The notes under the pieces were generated by a model. That model had not been told where the DNA came from and ran no database searches. It saw only the letters and a list, made by a program, of their open reading frames with translations. Both the position numbers and the translations under genes were made by a program. Below are positions 31,655-38,039 of a stretch of DNA of 64,000 nt, piece after piece (positions within the stretch are counted from its first letter, which is position 1; the number at the start of each line of letters is the position of its first letter). This DNA comes from Miltoncostaea oceani (GTDB taxonomy: Bacteria > Actinomycetota > Thermoleophilia > Miltoncostaeales > Miltoncostaeaceae), in NCBI RefSeq assembly GCF_018141545.1, contig NZ_CP064356.1, forward strand, positions 1,426,001 to 1,490,000. Reading direction: 5' to 3'.

Positions 31655-33910
31655 GTCCGACAGAGCGGCGCACCGGCCCTCGCACCGCCTCCGGCGGCGG
31701 CGACGGCGCGCGCCGCCCAGGTCCTCCCCCTGGTCGCCGCGCGCGGCCTGGACCGCATCCTCGACTACGCCGTCCCCGACGACCTCGGGGACGGCGTCGC
31801 GCCCGGTGCCCTCGTCGTCTGCCCCCTCGGGCCCCGCCGCGTGCTGGGCGTTGTGGTCGACCGCGCGCCGCCGACCCACGCCGGGCGGCTCGTGCCCCTC
31901 GCCGGGGTCGTCGCGGGCCCGCCGATCCCGGCGGAGCTGCTCGACCTCGCCCGGTGGATGGCTCGCTACTATCTGGCCCCGGTGGCGGCCTGCCTGCGCA
32001 TGGTGCTGCCCCCCGGGGGCGGCGGGAGCCTGCGCCGCACCGGCGACGGCGGGTGGGATCTCGTCGCGCCCCCCGCGCCCCGGGAGCGCCTGGTGGCGCG
32101 CCTGGGCGACGGCGCCCGCGCCGGCTCGCCCCGGCGGCGCGCCGTGGCCGACGAGCTGGGACGCCGCGGCGGGGCGCTGCCCGCCGCCGAGCTCTGCCGC
32201 GTCGCCGCGACGACGATGGCGACGCTGCGGGCGATGGGGGAGGAGGGGGCGCTCGAGCTGGTGCGCGAGAGCGCGCCGCCCGACGCCCTGACGTCGGCCG
32301 GCGGCGTCGCGCCCGCGCGCGACGCGGCCCCGGTGCTGACCCCCGAGCAGTCCGCCGCCACCGCGGCCATCGCCGCCGCGATGGCCGGCGACGGGGGCCC
32401 GCTGCTGCTGCACGGCGTCACCGGCTCCGGCAAGACGGAGGTCTACCTCGACGCCATCGAGGGGGCCCGCCGATCGGGCCGCGGGAGCATCGTGCTCGTC
32501 CCCGAGATCGCCCTCACCCCCCAGCTGCTCGGCCGCCTCCGGGCACGGCTCGGGACCCGCGTCGCGATCTGGCACTCGGCGCTGACCCCGGCCGAGCGGG
32601 CCGCCGAGCACCGGCGGGTGCGCGAGGGCGAGGCGGACGTCGTGCTCGGGGCCCGCAGCGCCGTGTTCGCACCCGTCCCGCGACTCGGCCTGATCATCGT
32701 CGACGAGGAGCACGACCCCTCGTACAAGCAGGACGGCTCGCCCCGCTACGACGCCCGGCAGGTCGCCGCCCGCCGCGCCCGCGACGCCGGCGCGGCCGTG
32801 GTCTACGGCAGCGCCACGCCGCGCCCCGAGGCGTGGCACGCACTCACGCGGCATTCGCTGCCCCGGCGCGCCGACGGCTCCGCCCTCCCCACCGTCGAGA
32901 TCGTGGACATGCGCCTGCAGGGGGCGGGGCCGGTGTCGCGCCCCCTCGCGCGGGCGCTCCACGAGGCCGCGGCGCGGGGCGAGAAGGCGATCGTGCTGGC
33001 CAGCCGCCGGGGGTTCTCCCTGATGGCCCTCTGCCGCGGCTGCGGCTGGATCGCCCGCTGCCCCGACTGCGACGTCGCCCTCGTCCAGCACGAGCGCCCC
33101 CGGCGGCTCGCGTGCCACCACTGCGGCCACGAGGAGCCGGTGCCGGGGGTCTGCCCGAGTTGCCACGCGGCGGAGATCGCCCGCCAGGGCACCGGCTCGC
33201 AGGGCGTCGAGGCGAGCCTGCGCCGCCTGGTGCCCGCCATGCGGATCGTGCGGATGGACGGGTCGAGCGCGTCCGGTCGCGGCGCGGTCGCCCGCCTGCT
33301 GGAGGAGTTCGCGCGTCCCGGGCCCGCGATCCTGCTCGGCACCCAGATGGTCGCGAAGGGCCACGACCTGCCCGACGTGACGGTCGCCGCCGCGGTCGAC
33401 GCCGACGCGCCCCTCCAGTTCGCGGGGTTCCGCTCGGAGGAGCGGGCGTTCTCGCTGATCGTCCAGCTCGCCGGCCGCGCCGGCCGCCGCGGCGAGCCGG
33501 CGCGCGTGATCGTCCAGGCCTACGAGCCGCAGGCCCGGGCGGTGCAGCTCGGGGCGCGCCACGCGGTCGAGGAGTTCCTCGCCGGCGAGGTCGACCGCCG
33601 CCGCGCCCACCTGCTCCCGCCGTTCTCGCACCTCACCCGGGTCGTCGTGGACGGTGAGTCGCCCGAGGCCGTCGCCGCCGCGTCGGCCGCGCTGGCGTCC
33701 GCCGTCCGCGACGCCGCGCCCGCCGTCGCCGTGCTCGGCCCCGCGCCCCTGCACCGCCTGCGGGGGCGCACCCGGCGCGCGTTGCTGCTCCAGGCGCCGC
33801 GCGCCTCGGAGATGACCGGGCCGCTGCGGGACGTGCTGTCGGAGCACGACGCGGCGCTGCGGCGCGCGGGGGTCCGGGCGGTCGTGGACGTGGACCCCCA
33901 GGAGACGTGA
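31655..33910 (+). CDS. priA: Primosomal helicase PriA; start codon not identifiable
   Basis: PriA restarts stalled replication forks. Unlike the degenerate PriA of mycobacteria, the helicase motifs are intact: GVTGSGKTEVYLDA (Walker A), IIVDEEHDPSYKQDG (DEEH) and LLGTQMVAKGHDLPDVTV. All eight zinc cysteines are present (CRGCGWIARCPDC, CHHCGHEEPVPGVCPSC). The N-terminal DNA-binding domain aligns from about AAQVLPLVAARGLDRILDYAVP at 31712 on, yet no in-frame ATG, GTG or TTG exists before 31841. A GGGGAGG lies at 31643-31649 with GTC at the right distance (31655); CTG 31730 is the first NTG codon in frame but cuts off the first beta strand. The coordinate given is therefore a guess. Confidence 0.85.
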   Translation, partial: VRQSGAPALAPPPAAATARAAQVLPLVAARGLDRILDYAVPDDLGDGVAPGALVVCPLGPRRVLGVVVDRAPPTHAGRLVPLAGVVAGPPIPAELLDLARWMARYYLAPVAACLRMVLPPGGGGSLRRTGDGGWDLVAPPAPRERLVARLGDGARAGSPRRRAVADELGRRGGALPAAELCRVAATTMATLRAMGEEGALELVRESAPPDALTSAGGVAPARDAAPVLTPEQSAATAAIAAAMAGDGGPLLLHGVTGSGKTEVYLDAIEGARRSGRGSIVLVPEIALTPQLLGRLRARLGTRVAIWHSALTPAERAAEHRRVREGEADVVLGARSAVFAPVPRLGLIIVDEEHDPSYKQDGSPRYDARQVAARRARDAGAAVVYGSATPRPEAWHALTRHSLPRRADGSALPTVEIVDMRLQGAGPVSRPLARALHEAAARGEKAIVLASRRGFSLMALCRGCGWIARCPDCDVALVQHERPRRLACHHCGHEEPVPGVCPSCHAAEIARQGTGSQGVEASLRRLVPAMRIVRMDGSSASGRGAVARLLEEFARPGPAILLGTQMVAKGHDLPDVTVAAAVDADAPLQFAGFRSEERAFSLIVQLAGRAGRRGEPARVIVQAYEPQARAVQLGARHAVEEFLAGEVDRRRAHLLPPFSHLTRVVVDGESPEAVAAASAALASAVRDAAPAVAVLGPAPLHRLRGRTRRALLLQAPRASEMTGPLRDVLSEHDAALRRAGVRAVVDVDPQET

Positions 33911-35622
33911 CGCCCGTGCCGGCCACGCCCCCGGACGGTCACGCGTCCCCTCCGACCGGCCGATGGAACGATATGGCCTCCGTCCCCACGGCCGCCGCGG
34001 ACGCCGCCGCGGCCGGCACGCCCCCGCCCCTCGACGGGTGGGAGGCGCGGCTCGCCGCGGAGCGCGCCAGCCTGCGCCGCGTGGCCGCCGCCGTCGTCGC
34101 CCGCGCCGACGCCGGGGGCGCCCTCGACCTGGCGGCGTCCGAGGTCGCGACCCTGATGGGCGCCGAGCAGGGTTTCGTCTTCCGCCTCGTCGAGGGTGAC
34201 CGCGTGATGGTCGCCGGCGCGTCGGGCGTCGAGGCGGCGCCGATCGGCGCCGTCCACGGGATGCTCCCCGCGGGGGTGATCCCCGAGGTCGTGCGCCGCC
34301 GCGCGCCCGTGCGCATCGAGGGGCGGCTGCGTCCCCTCGGGCGCGAGAACTCCGACCGGTACTGGATCGCGCCGGTCTACCGCGGGGGGGTCGGGGCGCC
34401 GGTGTTCGTGGGCGACGCGCTCTGGGGGGTGATGGTCGTGGCGACCACCCGCGACGAGCCGTTCCCCGCGGGGGCCGAGGACCGCCTCGACTACTTCGCC
34501 GAGATCGCGGGCATCGCGATCGGCACCGCCGAGGCGAACGAGCGCCTCGCGCGCCTCGCGATGAGCGACGCCCTGACGGGGCTCGCCAACAACCGCGCCT
34601 TCCAGGCCGCCCTCGACGCCGAGGTCGGGAGGGCCCGCCGCCACGGGCGGCCCCTCGCCCTCGCGGTCATCGACCTCGACCACTTCAAGTGGGTGAACGA
34701 CACCCACGGCCACCTCGCGGGCGACACGGCGCTGATGGAGATCGCGAGCCGGCTGACGGCGGAGGGCCGCCGCGGCGACCTGATCGCCCGCGTCGGCGGG
34801 GAGGAGTTCGCCTGGGTGCTCCCCGAGACCGACCTGGCCGCCGGGCTGCGGGTCGCCGAGCGCGCCCGCCGCGCCGCGTCCTCCCGGCCGGTCCCCGTCG
34901 TGGGGCGCGTCACCCTGTCGATCGGCGTCGCCGAGCTCGCGCAGGCCGGTGACGCCGCCGAGCTGTACCGCCTCGCCGACGAGGCCCTCTACTGCGCGAA
35001 GCGCTCGGGCCGCGACCGCTGCGTCGCCTACGACGCCGGCATCTCCCTCCGGACGCCGGCGCCCTGGGCCCACCCCGTCGGGAGCGGCGCTGTGGCGCGG
35101 GCCCTCTCCCGGGCGATCGACGCCCGCGAGCCCGGCGCCCGCGCCCACTGCGAGCGCGTCGCCGCCCTGGTGGAGCGCATGGCCCGCGCGGACGGCTGGC
35201 CCGGCGACCGCGCCGTGATGCTCGCCGAGGCGGGTCTCGTGCACGAGATCGGGACCCTCGGCCTGCCCGCCGCGCTGCGCCACGCCGACGCCGCGCCCGC
35301 GCCCGACGACGCCGCCCTGCTGCGCCGCCACCTGCTGCTCGGCGCCGAGATCGTCACCGACGTGATGACGCCCGAGCAGGTCGGCTGGGTCCGCGCGCAC
35401 GCGGAGCGCCACGACGGGTCGGGGCACCCCGACGGCGTCGCGGGCGAGGCGATCCCCGACGGCGCCCGCCTGATCGCGGTCGCCGACTTCTGGGACGCGC
35501 GGATCGCGTCCGGCTCCACCCCCGCCGTGGTGCGCGCCGAGCTCGCCGCACGCGCCGGGACGTGGTTCGACCCCGCCGCCGCGCGCCTGCTCGACGCGGC
35601 CGTCCGGGGGGAGCGCGTGTGA
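33907..35622 (+). CDS. GAF-GGDEF-HD hybrid cyclic-di-GMP enzyme
   Basis: This 571-residue soluble protein has a GAF sensor domain (about 55-210), a GGDEF diguanylate cyclase domain (about 218-375) and an HD domain (about 390-570). The active-site GGEEF is at 297-301 and an RxxD inhibitory site (RRGD, 288-291) lies five residues before it, so cyclase activity with product feedback is predicted. The HD part resembles HD-GYP: HCERV, HLLLGAEIV and DGSGHPDG are kept, but the HD dyad is His446-Glu447 and GYP is GHP (506-508). Phosphodiesterase activity is therefore doubtful. GTG 33907 overlaps priA, and the end overlaps the lyase-like gene, both by four bases. Confidence 0.9.
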   Translation: MTPVPATPPDGHASPPTGRWNDMASVPTAAADAAAAGTPPPLDGWEARLAAERASLRRVAAAVVARADAGGALDLAASEVATLMGAEQGFVFRLVEGDRVMVAGASGVEAAPIGAVHGMLPAGVIPEVVRRRAPVRIEGRLRPLGRENSDRYWIAPVYRGGVGAPVFVGDALWGVMVVATTRDEPFPAGAEDRLDYFAEIAGIAIGTAEANERLARLAMSDALTGLANNRAFQAALDAEVGRARRHGRPLALAVIDLDHFKWVNDTHGHLAGDTALMEIASRLTAEGRRGDLIARVGGEEFAWVLPETDLAAGLRVAERARRAASSRPVPVVGRVTLSIGVAELAQAGDAAELYRLADEALYCAKRSGRDRCVAYDAGISLRTPAPWAHPVGSGAVARALSRAIDAREPGARAHCERVAALVERMARADGWPGDRAVMLAEAGLVHEIGTLGLPAALRHADAAPAPDDAALLRRHLLLGAEIVTDVMTPEQVGWVRAHAERHDGSGHPDGVAGEAIPDGARLIAVADFWDARIASGSTPAVVRAELAARAGTWFDPAAARLLDAAVRGERV

Positions 35623-37115
35623 GCGGCCCGCCCGGGCTCACCTGGACCGCGGCGCGGGCGCCGGCGCCCCGCGACATCGAGCGGATCGCGGACGGGGAGC
35701 CGGTGTCCCTCGCCCCGGACGTCGTCGAGCGGGTCCGGGCCGGCCACGAGGCCGTCATCGACGCGCTGGCCGCCGGCGTCCGGGTCTACGGCGTCACGAC
35801 CGGGCAGGGGTTCCTCGCCGACCGCGACCTCGACCCCGGCGACGTCGCGCGGCACCAGGGCAACCTGCTGATCGGCCGGGCCGTCGGGTCGGCGCCCTGG
35901 CTCGACCGCGCCGAGGCGCGCGCGCTGGTGGCGGTGCGGCTCGCCCGGTTCACGTCCGGCGCCGCGGGGGTCAGCCCGGCGCTCTGCGCGGCCCTCGTGG
36001 CGATGCTCGACACCGGCCTCACGCCCGCCGTCCCCCGCGAGGGCGTCGGCTGCTCGGGCGAGGTGATCCCCCTGTCGCACGCGTTCCAGGTGCTGCTCGG
36101 CGTCGGCCGCGTCCTCGCCGGCGACGGGGGGGTCGAGGACGCCGCGGCGGCCCTCGCCGCCCGGGGCCTCGCGCCGTACGCGCCCCGCCCGAAGGAGGGC
36201 ATCGCCCTGCTCGCCGGCTCGCCCGGGGTCACCGCCCTCGCCGTGCTGCGCCGCCGCGACGCGGCGCGCCTCGCGGGCCTGATGACCGCCGGGGCCGCCG
36301 CCGCGGCGGACGCCGCGGGCGTCCCCCTCGACGCGCTGTCGCCCGCCGTCGGGCGCCTCGGCCCCGACCCCGTCCTGGCGGAGGCGACCGACCACCTCGG
36401 CCGGCTGCTGGCTGGCGCCCACGCGGACCGGCCGTCGTCGCAGGGGCCGGTGTCGTTCCGCGTCGCGCCGCAGGTGATCGCCCACCTGGTCCGCACCGTC
36501 GACCGGCTCGGGGACGACGCCACCCGGGCGCTCGCCGTGCCCGACGACTCGCCCGCCCTCATCGACGGGCGGTTCACGAGCACCGGCGCCTTCCACGAGA
36601 TCGGCCTCGCCGCCGGCATGGACGCCCTCACGGCGGCGCTCGCGCGGGCGGCCGAGACCGCGGCCCAGCGGACGCACCGCCTGCTCGACGGACGCGTGAC
36701 CGGCCTGCCCGACCAGCTCACCCCCCGCCCCGGACCCCGCTGCGGGCTGGTGGTGCTGCACAAGCGCGCCGTCGCCGTGGTCCACGAGATGCGCCGGCTC
36801 GCCGTGCCGGCCTCGATCGGGGTGGTGGACACCTCGCTCGGCCAGGAGGACGCCCAGACGTTCGGGTTCGCGTCGGCGGAGGCGCTGCGCCGCGCGCTCG
36901 GGCTGGCCGAGGAGGTCCTCGCGATCGAGCTGCTCACCGCCCGGCAGGCGTGGGCGCTGCGGGGCCGCCCGCCCGCGCCCGGGCTCGCCGGGCTCGCCGG
37001 TCCGCTGTGCGACGCCGTCGCCCCCGTCGACGAGGACCGCCCCCTCGGACCCGACGTCGACCGGGTCCGCGCGCTGCTGCGCCGGTCGCCCGTCCCGGAG
37101 TGCGCGACGGCCTGA
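35619..37115 (+). CDS. Divergent aromatic amino acid ammonia-lyase (HAL/PAL) family protein
   Basis: The 498-residue protein aligns along its length with histidine/phenylalanine ammonia-lyases: VYGVTTGQGFLA, the MIO-forming region VGCSGEVIPLSH, RPKEGIALL, GPVSFRVAPQV, STGAFHEIGLA and SLGQEDAQTFG. Several normally fixed residues differ: the MIO triad Ala-Ser-Gly is Cys145-Ser-Gly, the Asn of NGT is Ala199, the catalytic Tyr of QDxYSLR is Val278, and the substrate His of the SHA block is Arg. Tyr57, Arg281 and the Gln-Glu-Asp block remain. It may be an aminomutase, a new lyase or a non-enzymatic relative. GTG 35619 is coupled to the c-di-GMP enzyme by a GTGA overlap. Confidence 0.85.
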   Translation: MSGPPGLTWTAARAPAPRDIERIADGEPVSLAPDVVERVRAGHEAVIDALAAGVRVYGVTTGQGFLADRDLDPGDVARHQGNLLIGRAVGSAPWLDRAEARALVAVRLARFTSGAAGVSPALCAALVAMLDTGLTPAVPREGVGCSGEVIPLSHAFQVLLGVGRVLAGDGGVEDAAAALAARGLAPYAPRPKEGIALLAGSPGVTALAVLRRRDAARLAGLMTAGAAAAADAAGVPLDALSPAVGRLGPDPVLAEATDHLGRLLAGAHADRPSSQGPVSFRVAPQVIAHLVRTVDRLGDDATRALAVPDDSPALIDGRFTSTGAFHEIGLAAGMDALTAALARAAETAAQRTHRLLDGRVTGLPDQLTPRPGPRCGLVVLHKRAVAVVHEMRRLAVPASIGVVDTSLGQEDAQTFGFASAEALRRALGLAEEVLAIELLTARQAWALRGRPPAPGLAGLAGPLCDAVAPVDEDRPLGPDVDRVRALLRRSPVPECATA

Positions 37116-37178: not shown

Positions 37179-38039
37179 ATGCCGGTTCCCCGCCTATTCG
37201 AGGCGTCCAGCGACCCACGTGAGCAGTGGGTCCACGTCCTCGCCACGCTGCTGGGCCTCGGCGGGCCCGAGACGCGGACCGCGCTGGTCGAGGAGATCTC
37301 CGGGGAGTCCCTCCCCGAGGCCGACGCCCTCCTGGTGCGCGAGCAGCGCCCCCTCGGCGACGACCTGCTCGGCGACATCGTCGTGCGCGGCGCGGGCTGG
37401 ACGTTCGCGGTGCAGGCGACCCTGGCCTTCGACGCCGACGAGGAGGCGCGCCTGCGCGCCACCCACGACGCGCTGGCCGAGTCCTACGACAAGGTGATCG
37501 TCGTCGCGGTCACCCCCGACCGCAAGCCGCCGGCGGCGGTCGAGCGGGCCGGCGCGGACGGCCGCACCATCCGCCACCGCTCCTGGCTCCGCGTGCGCGA
37601 CTGGGTGCAGGAGCGCCCCGAGCGCGGCCGCGCCCAGGGCACCGACCTGCTGCTGCTGCGGGAGGCCGACTACTTCCTCACCCCGCGCGTCGCCGAGCTC
37701 TACCGGCTCGAGGGCCTCATGCCCCTCATCGCGCAGGACCTGCGGCCGAGCCTCGCCGGGATGTTCTTCGACCTGAACGACCTCGCCCCGGCCCCCCGCA
37801 TCCGCAACGAGGCGGGCGCCGCGACCGTCGCCTTCCCGCAGACCGGCGACCCGCAGGCCGAGATCGCGGTCGGCAGGGACGGCCTCGCGCTCACGCTCGC
37901 GAGCGGCGACGGCGGGCCCGGCTACGCCGCCGGGGGCGACGGCCGCCCGCGGCTCGCCGTGAACGGCGCCGGCGACTACCTCGCCGCACGCGCGTGGACG
38001 CAGTCCACCGCGCGGTCGCTGCTCCCCGCGCGCCGGTGA
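37179..38039 (+). CDS. Hypothetical cytosolic protein
   Basis: This 286-residue protein has no signal peptide or membrane segment. Residues about 60-115 read as alternating strands and helices: GDDLLGDIVVRGAGWTFAVQ, then ATLAFDADEEA and YDKVIVVAVTPD. The spacing of Asp and the strand FAVQAT recalls the core of PD-(D/E)xK nucleases, but Gln and Thr stand where Glu and Lys would be, so this is weak. ATG 37179 has an AAGGAG about ten bases upstream and a TACGCT -10-like box at about 37136. The stop is shared with the kinase start (GTGA), so the two are coupled and may act together. Confidence 0.6.
   Translation: MPVPRLFEASSDPREQWVHVLATLLGLGGPETRTALVEEISGESLPEADALLVREQRPLGDDLLGDIVVRGAGWTFAVQATLAFDADEEARLRATHDALAESYDKVIVVAVTPDRKPPAAVERAGADGRTIRHRSWLRVRDWVQERPERGRAQGTDLLLLREADYFLTPRVAELYRLEGLMPLIAQDLRPSLAGMFFDLNDLAPAPRIRNEAGAATVAFPQTGDPQAEIAVGRDGLALTLASGDGGPGYAAGGDGRPRLAVNGAGDYLAARAWTQSTARSLLPARR

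Follow-up and report, generated by a model that had tools for sequence, protein, structure and literature searches.

The window analysed here, a 64,000-nucleotide stretch of the Miltoncostaea oceani genome (G000), encodes a protein, P0001, that belongs to an apparently undescribed actinobacterial group in which the HAL fold is kept and MIO has mostly been lost. P0001 is the 498-residue product of positions 35619-37115 on the plus strand. We predict, with a probability of about one half, that it is a MIO-independent C-N lyase related to ergothionase, with a quaternary-ammonium, histidine-like amino acid as its substrate; judging from the genes that flank them, its relatives may degrade a histidine-like betaine taken up from outside. 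If this is correct, MIO loss is not peculiar to ergothionase but gave rise to a broader family branch. For proteins of the P0001 clade, the automatic name "histidine ammonia-lyase" is probably wrong.

Fold and active site of P0001

The features discussed below are as follows.

33907..35622, plus strand: GAF-GGDEF-HD protein (GGEEF), upstream neighbour, candidate link only (Pfam, sequence overlap)
35619..37115, plus strand: P0001, aromatic amino acid lyase family protein of the MIO-free clade (PF00221, clade placement)
35877..35879, plus strand: R87, Arg at the SHA histidine site, clade-invariant (alignment, clade columns)
36051..36062, plus strand: C145-S146-G147-E148, codons of the MIO loop, CSGE versus ASGD (translation, alignment)
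36213..36215, plus strand: A199 at the Asn site of NGT (alignment, clade columns)
36450..36461, plus strand: V278-S279-F280-R281, Tyr gone and Arg retained (alignment, clade columns)

The P0001 reading frame begins with a GTG codon at 35619 and stops at 37115, and its product is the only member of the family in G000. PF00221 (Lyase_aromatic) matches residues 18-454 (1.7e-94; 317.6 bits, cut-off 27.3), bearing out the original prediction that the family fold is kept along the full length. An AF2 model (pLDDT 89.7, with values below 50 limited to the termini and the MIO loop at 144-148) resembles the HAL structures 1B8F/1GKJ (TM 0.89) and ergothionase 6S7J (TM 0.89-0.90). Against the HutH model TIGR01225, P0001 scores 266.8 bits, about half the curated cut-off of 539, and against the aminomutase models TIGR03832 and TIGR04475 it scores 164 versus 501 and 136.7 versus 800 bits.

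In alignments with HutH, numbered after the Pseudomonas putida enzyme, His83 is replaced by Arg87, Asn195 by Ala199 and Tyr280 by Val278. The Ala-Ser-Gly-Asp of HutH becomes Cys145-Ser146-Gly147-Glu148 in a loop one residue shorter, and TGFG becomes TGQG. Tyr57, Lys192, Gln275, Arg281, Phe325-His326 and Glu410 are conserved between the two proteins, and Q409-E410-D411 is retained. The alignments thus agree with the substitutions and retained residues first read from the sequence, and a check for the Asn and Tyr at shifted positions showed that both are truly missing. In that numbering, the mutant names D145A, F329G, F329A and Y280F occur in PDB titles.

The CSG triad itself is not the main oddity, as several normal HutH proteins have it; the canonical HutH proteins L044 and L053, for example, carry GSLGCSGDLAPL with Asn and Tyr intact. 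Together with Phe325, the retained equivalent of F329, this would suit a P0001 that is an ordinary MIO-dependent lyase or aminomutase acting through its CSG triad. We consider this very improbable. MIO ammonia-lyases have A-S-G (or x-S/C-G) followed by Asp, whereas in P0001 Glu follows CSG in the shortened loop, neither the Asn nor the Tyr is present, and across the clade the triad varies freely.

An actinobacterial clade and its relation to ergothionase

A profile built from P0001, a Catenulispora rubra protein (L030) and L003 was run over 299 genomes of the class and 396 of the phylum. Its scores were split: full-length new clade members scored 464-565 bits and canonical HAL proteins at most 334 bits, while one partial clade member, L037, reached 332 bits across 310 positions. 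A further three members were found in Actinomycetes related to Catenulispora, and the known clade, at first of 16 members, now has 19, all actinobacterial. When P0001 was used to scan 84,980 species genomes, Catenulispora rubra was the only clade member among the matches listed. A scan of 398 Pseudomonadota genomes at a strict cut-off gave no clade members but, lacking a positive control, says little. No clade-specific NCBIfam or Pfam model matched, and the papers found here gave no description of the clade and little on hercynine breakdown or MIO-less relatives.

The tree of 16 members separates the clade (support 100/100) from both canonical HutH and the relatives of ergothionase, and the clade of 19 likewise stands at 100/100. 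Across the 19 members the triad reads C/A/S/T-S/A-G. At the middle position, which forms MIO, 14 members have Ala and five, P0001 among them, have Ser; parsimony requires at least five changes of this residue on the tree. A Rubrobacter PAL with Ser changed to Ala at the same position (RxPAL S153A) has been described as MIO-less (PMC3903478). Such a drifting triad implies that MIO may be dispensable even where the Ser remains, including in P0001. Arg87, Val278, Tyr57, Lys192, Gln275, Arg281, His326 and Glu410 are invariant in all 19 members. P0001 keeps all 58 columns that are invariant in the other 18, and since none is broken, it looks functional.

Ergothionase (6S7J) works without MIO and frees trimethylamine from ergothioneine, according to a passage in PMC13405746 that cites Maurer et al. 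2019. The triad region of 6S7J reads IGEGD, and the Asn and Tyr of MIO enzymes are lost there too. In a tree rooted on fragments of SgTAM (tyrosine aminomutase), a MIO enzyme, the P0001 clade is sister (99/98) to a group made up of ergothionase and several actinobacterial proteins that lack ASG, with 6S7J outside the P0001 clade. With the active-site columns and the long branch of 6S7J left out, the grouping has an SH-aLRT of 86. The trees give moderate support to a sister relationship with the ergothionase group, to which convergence or long-branch effects could contribute. The clade profile scores higher against HAL (337 bits to 7TQR) than against ergothionase (237 bits to 6S7J).

P0001 and the Treponema denticola 6S7J are 21-22% identical when structurally aligned. 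Both have the HAL fold, have lost the Asn and Tyr, and keep the carboxylate-binding Tyr/Arg and the Glu. Ergothionase has no MIO and the P0001 clade mostly lacks the Ser, though P0001 keeps it. However, ergothionase has one residue fewer in the triad, whereas the clade has all three, in most members with Ala in place of Ser. The SHA His, kept in ergothionase, is Arg in the clade, which also has Val instead of the Tyr, and His326 at the position of a Glu in 6S7J. With HutH the clade shares the fold, many pocket residues and, in some relatives, hut-operon neighbours, but most of its members are unable to form MIO, and it is set apart by its own fully supported clade and by reaching half the HutH cut-off. 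The Phe/Tyr aminomutases and PAL/TAL have the same fold, whereas the P0001 clade has lost the MIO residues and the Tyr needed for their chemistry.

The original prediction held that P0001 does not fit HAL, PAL or TAL and might act on a different amine, as an aminomutase, or as a binder without catalysis. The tree and the gene neighbourhoods support the misfit and the different amine. An aminomutase is unlikely, since its chemistry depends on MIO and most clade members lack the serine from which MIO is built. A non-catalytic binder is possible but less likely, because the pocket residues are invariant.

Another set of HAL-fold proteins, in which the ASG triad is incomplete, was seen (L022, L026-L029, L094:14757-16232, L100:3-1544 and L095:5185-6639), with GSVGVSD, GSLGLAD and the like in its place. 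These are mostly from Actinobacteria and group loosely with ergothionase, and some share loci or genomes with P0001-clade genes.

Gene neighbourhoods and the predicted reaction

Three kinds of gene recur around the lyase in relatives of P0001. First, an ornithine-cyclodeaminase (OCD)-family gene lies beside it in L030, L063, L093, L096, L097, L100-L103, L123 and L124, and also in the L094 locus; it is the commonest close partner (10 of 17 loci within 1.5 kb). Second, a ProV/OsmF-like betaine-type ABC transporter adjoins it in about half of the loci (L063, L094-L099, L122-L124). Third, urocanase (HutU) is near it in L091-L093, L095 and L123, and with other hut genes counted, in L091-L095 and L123; several clade genes lie inside hut operons. 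HutF was seen in clade loci too, as was an allantoate/N-carbamoyl-glutamate-type amidohydrolase. OCD or betaine-transporter genes lie within 1.5 kb in 14 of 17 clade loci versus 3 of 62 canonical loci (Fisher 3e-10, a p-value that overstates independence, as the rows are related), and in three of the 17 HutU alone is that close. OCD was present at 60% identity or more in 12 of 14 other clade genomes tested; in three of those (L125, L126, L127) it is on another contig, next to the transporter and twice with hut genes too. Each of the 18 other clade loci has one or more of these three kinds of gene (OCD, transporter, HutU) nearby, and none is near P0001.

The binding protein of the transporter is nearest to ProX and to precursor proteins of choline/nicotine sensors, and EgtUC matched too; betaine-type transporters carry many solutes. 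The nearest solved structures to the OCD partners are pyrroline-2-carboxylate reductase and alanine dehydrogenase, but the dinucleotide-binding loop of the partners reads GARGTA, versus GAG/GCG-xQA in solved OCD-family enzymes. On sequence, the proteins with this loop (L096:8126-9154 and partners in L030, L063, L093, L094, L097, L102, L103, L123-L126 and L128) form a distinct subfamily.

MIO activates a poor leaving group, the primary amine, while a quaternary ammonium can leave without MIO, ergothionase being the example. A betaine-type substrate would fit the clade, because the Asn, the Tyr and mostly the Ser are lost while the carboxylate anchor and the Glu are retained, and the hut genes nearby point to an imidazole ring in that substrate. 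We hypothesize that the enzyme carries out a 1,2-elimination of the amine from a substrate with a nitrogen that leaves readily without activation, a histidine-like betaine such as hercynine, with no electrophilic MIO adduct being made. Tyr57 and Arg281 would grip the alpha-carboxylate, and Glu410 with Arg87 and Lys192 would position the ring side and provide acid/base catalysis. The product would be an acrylate, which relatives may feed into the urocanate pathway.

Several observations count against this reaction. Five of the 19 members, including P0001, keep xSG and could form MIO; the clade profile is nearer HAL; ergothionase keeps the SHA His; and the linkages of the clade are absent in G000. 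The breadth of solutes taken by betaine-type transporters, and the three loci with HutU alone close by, weigh against it as well. The proposed elimination also leaves the OCD-family partner unexplained. A MIO-free enzyme of other chemistry, such as non-amine elimination, hydration, or an opine-like cleavage of N-carboxyalkyl histidine together with the OCD partner, would account for that partner's frequency, since imines and N-substituted amino acids are substrates of OCD-family enzymes, and Arg87, being invariant, might hold an additional acidic group. Yet roughly half of the loci have the betaine-type transporter, and the clade is sister to the ergothionase group; both points speak against such chemistry, and we regard other chemistry as somewhat unlikely.

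We tentatively propose that this second MIO-free branch of the HAL fold, the dedicated GARGTA OCD partner and the betaine-type importer may constitute a new catabolic pathway for histidine betaine, or a similar compound, that feeds hut in Actinomycetota. This would supply the genes and partners for a likely actinobacterial route that consumes histidine-type betaines.

Other features of these loci were noted. L123 (3592-5118, 7973-15355) brings together an ergothionase-like protein, a P0001-clade protein, OCD, the transporter, an RpiR-type regulator, HutU and canonical HutH. A homocysteine S-methyltransferase-family gene, of a family whose enzymes can take betaines as methyl donors, occurs at L100:1541-2578 (by Pfam) and L098:7509-8393 (by sequence likeness only). 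In two related genomes a sulfatase-family gene adjoins the OCD-lyase-transporter cluster (L096:6315-7835, L097:7717-9264).

Setting in Miltoncostaea oceani

In G000 the stop of the upstream GGDEF gene overlaps the start of the P0001 gene in the sequence GTGA (35619-35622), so the overlap behind the proposed coupling of translation to a cyclic-di-GMP enzyme is real. The overlap has no conserved counterpart: no GGDEF gene adjoins the lyase in any of 18 relatives, on which ground conserved c-di-GMP regulation was rejected, and three congeners (G001-G003) lack both genes at this site, where G000 has the pair between priA and 37179-38039. There, priA is followed directly by the equivalent of 37179-38039, and no match to P0001 was found anywhere in the three genomes. 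Given this site without either gene, the pair was either inserted in G000 or lost in the congeners. Recent horizontal arrival is not supported by composition, as GC3 and codon usage match those of the neighbours and look native. In the GGDEF protein (33907-35622) the GGEEF and an RxxD-like site look intact, and the HD-GYP part looks degenerate (HEIGT, DGSGHP).

The overlap and the orphan context, together with the loss of the Asn, the Tyr and mostly MIO, could mean that P0001 is a pseudoenzyme that serves as a binder or as a regulatory subunit without catalysis, perhaps with a link to c-di-GMP signalling in this genome. This is improbable: Tyr57, Arg281, Glu410, Lys192 and Gln275 are invariant in all 19 members, P0001 retains its 58 of 58 columns despite the orphan context, and its GGDEF neighbour recurs in no relative. 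Neither HutU nor a close OCD was found in G000, and its one betaine-type transporter is unlinked to P0001. Because transporter linkage, OCD and HutU are all missing, P0001 is an orphan here, and its product would have to be handled differently from that of its relatives.

The gene at 37179-38039 encodes a 286-residue protein with no Pfam or NCBIfam match. It is conserved downstream of priA in the host family, with 77-81% identity in congeners and about 50% in other genera.
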